A DNA stretch of 57,582 nt from Halobacteriales archaeon SW_5_70_135. GTDB lineage: Archaea; Halobacteriota; Halobacteria; Halobacteriales; SW-7-71-33. The notes beneath the pieces are model-generated. The model was not told where the DNA came from, ran no database searches, and saw nothing but the letters and a program-made list of their open reading frames with translations. A program made the position numbers and the translations under genes. Below are positions 10,339 to 14,076 of this stretch, in pieces; position 1 is the stretch's first letter; every line of letters begins with the position of its first letter. The stretch is from assembly GCA_003022865.1 (NCBI GenBank), contig PXSK01000010.1:1-57582 (forward strand), in the 5' to 3' direction.

Positions 10339-11799
10339 TCAGTACGTCTTCGCGAAGTAGGCGGTCTCCTCGCTGGGCTCGTCACAGACCGCACAGGTCT
10401 CTGCGACCGGCTCGTAGTCCTCGTCGTCCTCCATCGGCAGCATGACGACCTCGGCGGCGATCTCGTCCTTGATGACGGTCTCGCAGGCCTCGTCGCCGCA
10501 CCACGCGGCACGCACGTAGCCGCCGTGCTTGCCGATGGTACCGAGCATCTCCTCGGGGCTGTCGGCGTCGCGGACGTTCTCCTCCAGGTGCTGCCGGGCG
10601 GCGTCGTACAGCTTCCGGTGGACGGCGTCGAGATGCTCCACGGCGGTCTCGGCGAGGTCGTCGCGGTCGACCTCGACGGTCTCGCCGTCCGGACGGTGAA
10701 CGAGCGTGACCGTCCCGTCGGCGACCTCGTTGCCGCCGATCTCCACGCGCAGGGGGACACCCCGCAGCTCCCACTCGTTGAACTTGAAGCCGGGATTGCG
10801 CTCGTCGCGGTCGTCGAACTCGACGCGCAGGTCCGCGGTTTCGAGGTCGTCGACGACGCTTTCGGCGTAATCGAGCACCGCCTCGCGGTCGTCGTCGCTC
10901 CAGATCGGGACGACGACGACCTGCTCGGGAGCGACGGCGGGCGGCAGGACGAGCCCCTGGTCGTCGCCGTGTGCCATCAGCATCGCGCCCATCGCCCGCC
11001 AGGAGAAGCCCCAGGAGGTGGTGTGAGCGGTACGCTCCCGCTCCTCGGCGTCGGTGTAGGTGATCTCGAAGGCCTCGGCGAAGGACCGACCGAGGTGGTG
11101 CGAGGTGGCACCCTGGACGGACTTGCCGTCGGGCATCAGCGCCTCTACGGTCGTCGTGGTGTCGGCGCCGGGGAACGTGTCGTGCTCGGGCTTGCGGCCG
11201 ACCAGCGCGGGCAGTGCGAGCACCTCCTCGTACACCGCTTCGTACTGCCGCAGCCGGAGCATCGTCTCCTCCCAGGCGCCGTCGCGGTCACGGTGTGCGG
11301 TGTGGCCCTCCTGCCAGAGGAACTCCTTCGTCCGGAAGAACGGCTTCGTCTCGGTGGCCTCCCAGCGACAGACCGAACACCACTGGTTGAGCCGCAGCGG
11401 CAGGTCGCGGTGCGAGCGGACCCACTGTGCCATGTACGGGGCGATGATCGACTCGCTGGTGGGGCGGACCGCGAGTCGCTCGTCGAGTTCGTCGTAGCCG
11501 CCGTGGGTGACCCACGCCACCTCGGGGTCGAACCCCTCGACGACCTCCTTCTCCCGCTCCAGGTAGGACTCGGGGACGAACATCGGGAAGTAGGCGTTCC
11601 GCACGCCGGTGTCCTCGAACCGGTCGTCGAGCGACTCCCGGATCGCCTCCCAGACGGCGTAGCCGCGGGGGCGGGTGACGATGAACCCGCCCATCGGGGC
11701 GTAGTCGGCGACTTCGGCCTTCTGGATTAGTTCGGTGTACCACTCGCCGGTGTTGTGCGCCTTGCTCTCGGTGATGCCGAGTTCTTGCTCGCCGCTCAT
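10339..11799 (-). CDS. proS: Prolyl-tRNA synthetase, archaeal/eukaryotic type
   Basis: 486 residues, the usual length of the short archaeal class II ProRS. Motif 2 elements are RPTSES (112-117) and CRWEATETKPFFRTKEFLWQ, and motif 3 is in the SFSWRAMGAML-like segment near residue 270. After the anticodon-binding domain comes a C-terminal zinc-binding segment with cysteines in WCGDEACE and CAVCDEP, and the protein ends in AKTY, a C-terminal tyrosine conserved in this type. It charges tRNA(Pro). A TATA-like sequence (11825-11831) lies about 28 bp upstream, so the message is probably leaderless. Confidence 0.96.
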   Translation of the reverse strand: MSGEQELGITESKAHNTGEWYTELIQKAEVADYAPMGGFIVTRPRGYAVWEAIRESLDDRFEDTGVRNAYFPMFVPESYLEREKEVVEGFDPEVAWVTHGGYDELDERLAVRPTSESIIAPYMAQWVRSHRDLPLRLNQWCSVCRWEATETKPFFRTKEFLWQEGHTAHRDRDGAWEETMLRLRQYEAVYEEVLALPALVGRKPEHDTFPGADTTTTVEALMPDGKSVQGATSHHLGRSFAEAFEITYTDAEERERTAHTTSWGFSWRAMGAMLMAHGDDQGLVLPPAVAPEQVVVVPIWSDDDREAVLDYAESVVDDLETADLRVEFDDRDERNPGFKFNEWELRGVPLRVEIGGNEVADGTVTLVHRPDGETVEVDRDDLAETAVEHLDAVHRKLYDAARQHLEENVRDADSPEEMLGTIGKHGGYVRAAWCGDEACETVIKDEIAAEVVMLPMEDDEDYEPVAETCAVCDEPSEETAYFAKTY

Positions 11800-11831: not shown

Positions 11832-11903
11832 TCGGTGGGGCCGCGGTGAGCGTTCACGTACTCTCGGAAACGAAGCGCCGTGAAGGGGGGACGTATCAGA
11901 AGG

Positions 11904-11910
11904 ATTTTTA
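11904..11910 (+). promoter_or_regulatory. Putative TATA box of fttA
   Basis: ATTTTTA is the only AT-rich element in the 350 bases between the divergent proS and fttA genes that points towards fttA. A start about 25 bp downstream would give a leader of roughly 215 nt, very long for a haloarchaeal mRNA. Confidence 0.45.
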
Positions 11911-11937
11911 CATCGCAGTGCGCAAGCCGACGCGAGC

Positions 11938-12150
11938 GGGGTTCCTCCCGGAGCACTCGACCCGACCCGGGAGGCCCCGAGCCCACCGACCGGCCTCCGT
12001 GCCGGGCGATCACGTCATGACCCGTCCGACAGTTCCTCCTGTTGTTCGACGGACGGGGACGACGAGTCCCCGTCACCGACGTCGAGGTGTGGCCTCGCCG
12101 AGGACCGGCGACGGGCCGAACGAGACCGGGAGCACTACGTCACACGACCC
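11938..12150 (+). promoter_or_regulatory. Structured fttA leader with alternative hairpins, or unannotated small RNA
   Basis: Three strong hairpins are visible. CCTCCCGG (11944-11951) pairs with CCGGGAGG (11967-11974), extended by GGGG/CCCC. CCCGTCCG (12021-12028) pairs perfectly with CGGACGGG (12050-12057). GACGGGGAC (12052-12060) pairs perfectly with GTCCCCGTC (12066-12074) over a 5-nt loop. The last two share bases 12052-12057 and cannot form together, as in attenuators and riboswitches. No protein-like frame fills this stretch. Confidence 0.45.
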
Positions 12151-14076
12151 ATGAGTTCAGTAGACCGACAGCTCGACGACCTGCAGGCGGAGATAGCGGC
12201 GGAGATACCGGACGACGTCTCGATATCGGACGTCACGTACGAGGGGCCGGAACTCGTCGTCTACACGCGGGACCCGAGGACGTTCGCCGAGAAGGGCGAC
12301 CTGGTCCGGCAGCTCGCCGGCAAGCTACGCAAGCGTATCACCGTCCGCCCGGACCCGGAGGTGTTGACGTCTCCGGCGGAGGCCGAACCGGAGATCCGCG
12401 AGGTCGTCCCGGAGGACGCCGGCGTCACCGAACTCGACTTCCACCCGGACACCGGCGAGGTGGTCATCGAGGCCGAGAAGCCCGGCATGGTGATCGGACG
12501 GCACGGCTCGACGCTGCGGGAGATCACCAGCGAGGTGGGGTGGAGTCCCGAGGTGGTGCGGACGCCGCCGATCGAGTCCTCGACGGTGAAGAACGTCCGT
12601 GACTTCCTCAAGCAGGAACGCCAACAGCGCCGGGACGTCCTCGAACGCGTCGGCCGACAGATCCACCGCGAGGAGATGGCCGACGAGCAGTGGGTCCGCA
12701 TCACGACACTGGGCTGCTGCCGGGAGGTCGGCCGCGCGGCCTTCCTCCTCTCGACGGCGGAGACGCGGGTCCTGATCGACTGCGGCGACAAGCCCGGCGC
12801 CGAGGACGAGGTGCCGTACCTCCAGGTGCCCGAGGCGCTGGGTGCGGGCGCGACGAACATCGACGCCGTCGTACTCACACACGCCCACCTCGACCACTCG
12901 GCGCTGATCCCGCTGCTTTTCAAGTACGGCTACGACGGCCCGATCTACACCACCGAGCCCACCCGCGACCTGATGGGTCTGCTCACCCTCGACTACCTCG
13001 ACGTCGCCGGCAAGGAGGGCCGCACGCCGCCGTACGAGAGCGAGATGGTCCGCGAGGCGATCAAGCACACGGTGCCGCTCGAGTACGGCGACGTGACCGA
13101 CATCGCCCCGGACGTGAAGCTCACGCTGCACAACGCCGGTCACATCCTCGGCTCCGCGGTGGCACACTTCCACGTCGGCGACGGCTACTACAACGTCGCC
13201 TTCTCCGGGGACATCCACTACGACGACACCCGGCTGTTCAACGGCGCCGTCAACGACTTCCCACGCGTGGAGACGCTCGTACTGGAGTCGACCTACGGCG
13301 GTCGCAACGACTACCAGACCGACCAGGAGGACTCCGAGCGCAAGCTCAAGCAGGTGATCCGCGAGGCTCACGACCGCGGCGGCAAGGTGCTGATCCCCGC
13401 CTTCGCCGTCGGGCGCTCGCAGGAGATGATGCTCGTCTTGGAGGAGGCGATGCGCGAGGGCGACGTCCCGACGATGCCGGTCCACCTCGACGGGATGATC
13501 TGGGAGGCGACCGCCATCCACACGGCGTATCCGGAGTACCTGCGCGACGACCTGCGGGAGCGCATCTTCCACGAGGACGAGAACCCGTTCCTCGCCGAGC
13601 AGTTCAACCACATCGACGAGGGCGAGGAAGAACGCCAGGAGGTGGCCGACGGCGACCCCGCGATCGTTCTCACCACTTCCGGGATGGTCGAGGGCGGACC
13701 GGTCATGTCCTGGCTGCGCCACCTCGCGAGCGACGAGCGGTCGACGATGGCCTTCGTCGGCTACCAGGCACAGGGCACGCTCGGTCGTCGCATCCAGAAC
13801 GGCCGCCGCGAGCTGCCGCTGAGCGACGGCGACCCCACCGGCCGCCGGGAGACAGTTACGATGGAGATGAACGTCGAGACCGTCGACGGCTTCTCCGGTC
13901 ACGCCGACCGGCAGGGCCTCGAGAACTTCGTCCGCACGATGAATCCCCGCCCGGAGAAGGTGCTCTGTGTCCACGGCGACGAGTCCTCCACGCAGGACCT
14001 CTCCTCGGCGCTGTACCACGAGTACAACATGCGCACCTTCGCCCCCCGCAACCTGGAGACGTTCCGCTTCCGGTGA
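12151..14076 (+). CDS. fttA: aCPSF1/FttA ribonuclease, transcription termination factor
   Basis: 641 residues, the typical archaeal CPSF1 length. Residues 1-150 hold two KH-like RNA-binding domains (second one with KPGMVIGRHGSTLREI). Then comes a metallo-beta-lactamase domain with the zinc motif HAHLDH (about 244-249), interrupted by a beta-CASP domain with LIPAFAVGRSQEMML and LTTSGMVEGGPV, and closing with the histidine motifs VDGFSGHADR and CVHGDE. This 5'-exo/endonuclease cuts nascent RNA and drives archaeal transcription termination at U-rich sites (family knowledge). The ATG at 12151 is chosen because the KH domain starts immediately. Confidence 0.95.
   Translation: MSSVDRQLDDLQAEIAAEIPDDVSISDVTYEGPELVVYTRDPRTFAEKGDLVRQLAGKLRKRITVRPDPEVLTSPAEAEPEIREVVPEDAGVTELDFHPDTGEVVIEAEKPGMVIGRHGSTLREITSEVGWSPEVVRTPPIESSTVKNVRDFLKQERQQRRDVLERVGRQIHREEMADEQWVRITTLGCCREVGRAAFLLSTAETRVLIDCGDKPGAEDEVPYLQVPEALGAGATNIDAVVLTHAHLDHSALIPLLFKYGYDGPIYTTEPTRDLMGLLTLDYLDVAGKEGRTPPYESEMVREAIKHTVPLEYGDVTDIAPDVKLTLHNAGHILGSAVAHFHVGDGYYNVAFSGDIHYDDTRLFNGAVNDFPRVETLVLESTYGGRNDYQTDQEDSERKLKQVIREAHDRGGKVLIPAFAVGRSQEMMLVLEEAMREGDVPTMPVHLDGMIWEATAIHTAYPEYLRDDLRERIFHEDENPFLAEQFNHIDEGEEERQEVADGDPAIVLTTSGMVEGGPVMSWLRHLASDERSTMAFVGYQAQGTLGRRIQNGRRELPLSDGDPTGRRETVTMEMNVETVDGFSGHADRQGLENFVRTMNPRPEKVLCVHGDESSTQDLSSALYHEYNMRTFAPRNLETFRFR

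Follow-up and report, generated by a model that had tools for sequence, protein, structure and literature searches.

The window analysed here, a 57,582-nucleotide stretch of a haloarchaeal genome (G000, 63% complete), carries fttA next to a divergently transcribed proS gene, the two being separated by an intergenic gap of 351 bases (table 1). A preliminary description of this DNA had identified the gene starting at 12151 as fttA and placed approximately 215 nt between it and the best TATA candidate. Both points are borne out, the first by the three Pfam domains of the product and the second by the position of the best BRE/TATA match, with no TATA box immediately 5′ of the fttA ATG. Transcription of fttA is therefore predicted to start near 11934–11937, which would give a leader of about 215 nt. 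Two features of this leader had gone unmentioned in the preliminary description: a conserved 5′ element, and an upstream open reading frame (uORF) that encloses both of the stems it had pointed out.

Table 1. Features of the proS–fttA locus, with positions in the window.
Feature	Position	Strand	Evidence and remarks
proS, prolyl-tRNA synthetase, divergent neighbour	10339..11799	-	Pfam tRNA-synt_2b, HGTP_anticodon, ProRS-C_1
BRE/TATA promoter of fttA leader, GAAGGATTTTTA	11899..11910	+	Aligns with GAAGGCTTTTATAA, shared by almost every one of 106 haloarchaeal fttA upstream regions
Predicted transcription start	11934..11937	+	~30 nt from TATA; aligned with the AAGCGGG that opens the conserved element of relatives
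5′-terminal RNA element, derived version	11937..11979	+	Fold -26.2 kcal/mol, z = -2.0
Outer stem P1 of derived element, CGGGG/CCCCG	11937-11941/11975-11979	+	Around UU at 11942-11943
Inner stem P2 of derived element, CCUCCCGG/CCGGGAGG	11944-11951/11967-11974	+	Within P1
uORF, 45 codons, MTRPTVPPVVRRTGTTSPRHRRRGVASPRTGDGPNETGSTTSHDP	12017..12154, stop TGA 12152-12154	+	Unannotated; support comparative
Stem 1 (I5)	12021-12028/12050-12057	+	Perfect stem; within uORF; not conserved
Stem 2 (I2)	12052-12060/12066-12074	+	Perfect stem; within uORF; not conserved; without U-run after it
ATGA overlap: fttA ATG 12151-12153 and uORF TGA 12152-12154	12151..12154	+	Sequence; identical overlap in 54/99 leaders
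fttA (aCPSF1), transcription termination ribonuclease, 641 aa	12151..14076	+	Pfam KH_TffA 3e-29, Beta-Casp 6e-31, RMMBL 4e-17

Comparison of the fttA upstream regions of 106 distinct haloarchaea reveals a common plan, in which the promoter is followed some 30 nt later, at the expected transcription start, by an AAGCGGG-TTYTC element. In the GCGGG type of this element the order is AAGCGGG-UUYUC-(N)-CCCGC, the two arms lying 13–18 nt apart in most leaders. A search for a 5-bp partner of P1 at any place in up to 90 nt found one in 87 of 112 cases against 87.8 expected, a test that is uninformative in GC-rich DNA; redone with a limit on position, it located CCCGC 4–20 nt beyond the tract in 36 of the 57 leaders of this type, where 3.6 are expected. 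Variants of the pairing include GCGGG/CCCGU and GCGGG/CUUGC, and in two leaders (L010 and L011) GCGGUUUCUACCGC retains it through a compensated change (GCGGU/ACCGC). It is position and one compensated variant, rather than broad covariation, that argue for the GCGGG/CCCGC pairing. The second type, found in Halosimplex, Halorientalis, Halovenus and others, consists of CGG-UUUU and, after it, a hairpin with coordinated base changes in its two arms (CCGGAC/GUCCGG, CCAGGC/GCCUGG, ACCC/GGGU), the third pair occurring as G-C, A-U, U-A and C-G. Since the two types differ, RNAalifold recovered no structure from a mixed alignment of both. The unpaired UUYUC is conserved at least as well as the stem, and the element is present even in the small-genome family f2 (L111 and L112). 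The version in the window is homologous in position to the GCGGG-UUYUC..CCCGC and CGG-UUUU-CCGG..CCGG elements, its tract comprising only UU plus CCU, versus UUUUC in relatives.

Halorussus and relatives (L013, L014, L027, L030, L040, L067, L068, L070 and L107) have no nearby CCCGC. Reading by eye, a CCCGC is seen in these leaders roughly 100 nt downstream, just 5′ of the uORF, with extra stems in between, and it may close a larger multi-branched domain into which these stems have been inserted.

Of 59 genomes, 26 contain the pattern TTTTAT-N16-26-AAGCGGGTTYTC, each of them a single time and in all 26 directly upstream of fttA, so that the element is tied to this gene and is no general leader motif. 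The reversed pattern, run as a control, gave one match, and a type-B promoter pattern with a spacer too short to reach fttA gave one chance match. Among the sequences searched, the 5′ element is a companion of fttA only.

The leaders share the uORF as well. We took as its start the first ATG lying 60 nt or more beyond the beginning of the promoter motif, an ATG that is found in 99 of the 106 leaders; the uORF begins approximately 100 nt after the promoter. From this ATG the frame stops between −15 and +20 of the fttA start in 88 of the 99 leaders, versus 13 and 24 of 99 when the frame is shifted by one and two bases, and in-frame stops amount to 20 in 3928 codons, versus 45 and 60 for the other two frames. 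Across 45 clusters of similar leaders, 33.8 fall in the range −10 to +8, against 18.8 ± 2.8 from shuffled uORF bodies. Several of the misses (L005, L017 and L030) have an extra ATG upstream, and there the next ATG fits. The context 5′ of the uORF ATG has A at −3 in 58, C at −2 in 63 and T at −1 in 54 of the 99 leaders. In the window all three frames of this region are open, and it is for this reason that support for the uORF there is comparative only.

The encoded peptide shows no mark of selection: in alignable uORF groups the minimum number of changes is 62 at the first, 77 at the second and 78 at the third codon position, with no third-position excess. Suggestive similarities between single peptides, as between MTGPTVP of L035 and MTRPTVP of the window, failed this codon-position test. 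Arg makes up 16% of the peptides and their net charge is +7 per 100 aa, a basic, Arg-rich composition that resembles translated GC-rich non-coding sequence, and Halorubrum uORFs differ from each other through frame-changing deletions. A start, an openness and a stop position that are kept while the sequence drifts are, on this comparison, the signature of a uORF working by translation. Given that the peptide is unconserved, what the uORF supplies is probably ribosomes, through termination-reinitiation. At the Halorubrum loci (among L015–L104), an 18-nt block at the uORF start, ATGCCTACCCCGTCACGG, is nearly invariant, and the remainder drifts and changes frame. Seven leaders with the promoter have no uORF (Halolamina, A07HB70-like and one other), so the uORF is not indispensable. 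These leaders (L083, L084, L095 and L110 of Halolamina; L054 and L063; L082) have no leader ATG and keep the fttA promoter; in Halolamina the 5′ element is clearly kept and a GC-rich hairpin lies just before the fttA start.

Clues to where the leader came from lie in its distribution. Genomes sampled from outside the order, and likewise the deep-branching families f9 and f11 (L117–L120, L131–L150), have fttA directly after another long and conserved ORF that, judged by eye from its translation, resembles a proteasome beta subunit gene, and there no 5′ element is found near the fttA start. The pairing of this proteasome-beta-like gene with fttA is apparently ancestral and was broken in Halobacteria. 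In view of this upstream-ORF context without the element outside crown Halobacteria, the leader seems to have arisen in Halobacteria when fttA acquired a promoter of its own. In family f3, two genomes (G058 and G019) hold two full-length fttA genes each, 72–79% identical to the query. Only the canonical copies (L114 and L115) bear the element and the uORF, and the second copies (L113 and L116) have an unrelated upstream region.

How would such a leader work? Reinitiation in Haloferax needs overlaps of −4, −1 or −8 or gaps of a few nucleotides and fades by about 20 nt (PMC10666635; PMC6728339); it is strict at ATGA overlaps in H. volcanii (PMC6728339), and drops to 40–60% at 13–14 nt, with almost none left at 23 nt (PMC10666635). 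The stops of the fttA uORFs fall mostly within this measured range, so fttA is likely to be translated by ribosomes that the uORF delivers. The comparison shows the conserved element, its tie to fttA, and the uORF with the place of its stop; from these we infer that the uORF is translated and that reinitiation takes place in vivo.

aCPSF1/FttA acts on nascent RNA. Its KH domains bind U4 tracts, as found for a methanogen rather than a haloarchaeal enzyme (PMC8716108), and it has been hypothesised that FttA is kept off nascent RNA by the coupled ribosome (PMC11616081). We consider it probable that the fttA leader is uORF-coupled, with the U-tract element as a candidate site of feedback by FttA. 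Ribosomes finishing the uORF would restart on fttA and, while on the uORF, would shield the leader from FttA; FttA in excess would attach to the U-tract element and either cleave the leader as it emerges or end its transcription. The steps that lead from a conserved U-tract to FttA binding, and from binding to feedback, are ones that we infer, and feedback on the leader by FttA itself is possible, though somewhat doubtful. That FttA might limit its own synthesis through the leader had been suggested in the preliminary description and is supported as plausible. In the species of the window, the idea of FttA binding is mildly weakened by a tract of UU plus CCU in place of UUUUC.

The uORF could instead serve constitutive termination-reinitiation only, with the 5′ hairpin merely guarding the mRNA against attack on its 5′ end by exonucleases, aRNase J for example, and with no feedback by FttA, a real possibility that we would place somewhat short of even. 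Such a leader would explain the uORF evidence without feedback, it would agree with an element at the extreme 5′ end that forms a stem in most species, and Halolamina, with the element and without the uORF, indicates that the two parts are separable. However, a generic stabiliser would be expected on other mRNAs, whereas the promoter-linked element occurs at fttA only, and conservation of the unpaired UUYUC equals or exceeds that of the stem. Less probable by far, and in our view unlikely, is that the GCGGG..CCCGC dyad acts not as RNA but as a DNA operator with a repressor of its own. The inverted repeat does span the predicted start site and is nearly invariant in the GCGGG type, but the spacing of its arms varies between 13 and 18 nt, and apparently reaches some 100 nt in Halorussus via the inserted stems; other lineages carry a hairpin of different sequence and position with the pairing kept, and the most conserved part, UUYUC, is asymmetric.

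The preliminary description had favoured an attenuator, made of two mutually exclusive hairpins at 12021–12074. The two perfect stems are indeed there, with six bases in common, and a 66-nt piece that holds both is moderately more structured than its shuffles (z = −2.2); the leader as a whole is not above shuffles in structure (z = −0.8, with 41 of 200 shuffles as stable). Mutual exclusion is not forced, because a single minimum-energy fold accommodates both hairpins, stem 2 complete and stem 1 re-registered to 12023–12032/12039–12051. Across 99 leaders (the window and 98 relatives), the homologous position immediately 3′ of the first leader ATG shows no comparable structure (mean z = −0.29), so that the stems are, as judged from these leaders, a local peculiarity of this genome without evolutionary support; at close range the comparison comprised one close relative, L002, from the same family and another genus. 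A lack of conservation of the stems in relatives had been named beforehand as refuting the idea, and neither stem is conserved. Furthermore, the leader has no T-run after stem 2 and no intrinsic-terminator-like site, and both stems lie inside the uORF. A trp-type hairpin switch is built from exclusive alternative stems that are conserved or covary, one of them a terminator with a U-run, and the fttA leader has no such arrangement. Comparative sequence thus largely refutes the attenuator, which we now regard as highly improbable. What stands of the regulatory leader then proposed is that it is long, specific to fttA, conserved across Halobacteria and plausibly regulatory; its signals, however, sit at 11937–11979 and in the uORF at 12017–12154.

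That the region encodes a small RNA in its own right, or a micro-protein with a function, is just as hard to credit, for although the uORF offers a 45-aa frame with a conserved start and small proteins are common in haloarchaea (PMC4983044), its peptide is unconserved, with codon-position changes (62/77/78) that lack the third-position excess of purifying selection, changes frame among Halorubrum species and is basic and Arg-rich, unlike typical acidic haloarchaeal proteins. The small RNA, raised as an alternative in the preliminary description, has no separate promoter and no terminator, the region has no Pfam match, and an Rfam scan of the window gave 0 matches above the gathering score, whether to a riboswitch or to an sRNA family.

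Several known systems resemble parts of the leader that we favour, a uORF-coupled one with a candidate FttA site. RNase E, PNPase and RNase III are autoregulated in bacteria at the 5′-UTR, through a structured element in their own leader. They belong to other enzyme families, and cleavage in the fttA leader is a proposal only. For PNPase, KH/S1 autoregulation is cited within the aCPSF1 literature (PMC8716108). Long leaders with uORFs of 15–31 codons have been described for 16 genes of H. volcanii by Babski et al. 2016 (PMC4983044). The fttA gene (HVO_0874) is absent from that list, and those uORFs were validated by an acidic product, whereas the peptides of the fttA uORFs are basic and unconserved, and the uORFs are defined by where they stop. 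In ATGA termination-reinitiation coupling, known from Haloferax volcanii and E. coli, the stop/start geometry is identical, with −4 and −8 overlaps and short gaps, and coupling has been measured in the same species group (PMC6728339, PMC10666635). Coupled genes have the upstream stop about −8 to +10 nt from the downstream start, as is the case here, with ATGA in the window and in 54 of 99 leaders, but what precedes fttA is no protein gene of an operon; it is a short uORF that drifts fast and has no conserved product. A literature search found no paper that ties fttA/aCPSF1 to autoregulation or to a uORF. Coupling by reinitiation and autogenous leaders are already known, and it is their combination on fttA, proposed here from comparative sequence, that appears to be new.

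FttA is the general archaeal termination factor, an ancestor-like form of CPSF73/INTS11. The leader touches on whether, and by what means, cells adjust the level of FttA, and on whether FttA polices transcription-translation coupling in the way of Rho, as hypothesised (PMC11616081). With a conserved fttA-specific leader and a uORF at the start codon, both questions become testable in Haloferax volcanii with simple mutants. In that species 72% of mRNAs are leaderless (PMC4983044), and a leader conserved for so long is found here in a group with mostly such mRNAs.

Autogenous attenuation of rho, in E. coli and other bacteria, shares with the proposed fttA system a general, ribosome-sensitive termination factor and a long leader on which the factor could act in its own transcript. 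The E. coli rho leader also contains a short ORF, rhoL. In rho the attenuation in the gene's own leader is established (PMC6582626), whereas feedback at fttA is proposed only; FttA is an unrelated ribonuclease of the CPSF73 type, and the archaeal leader is distinguished by a conserved 5′-terminal U-tract stem element and a uORF overlapping the start codon. As in rho-type autogenous leaders, the fttA leader is long, specific to the gene of the factor and conserved in relatives. Tentatively, and as a reading that we hold to be rather doubtful in its full extent, FttA may read the 5′ U-tract of its own transcript while a uORF of free sequence shields the leader and hands ribosomes to fttA, so that the gene would report on transcription-translation coupling and represent an independently evolved counterpart of rho autoregulation.
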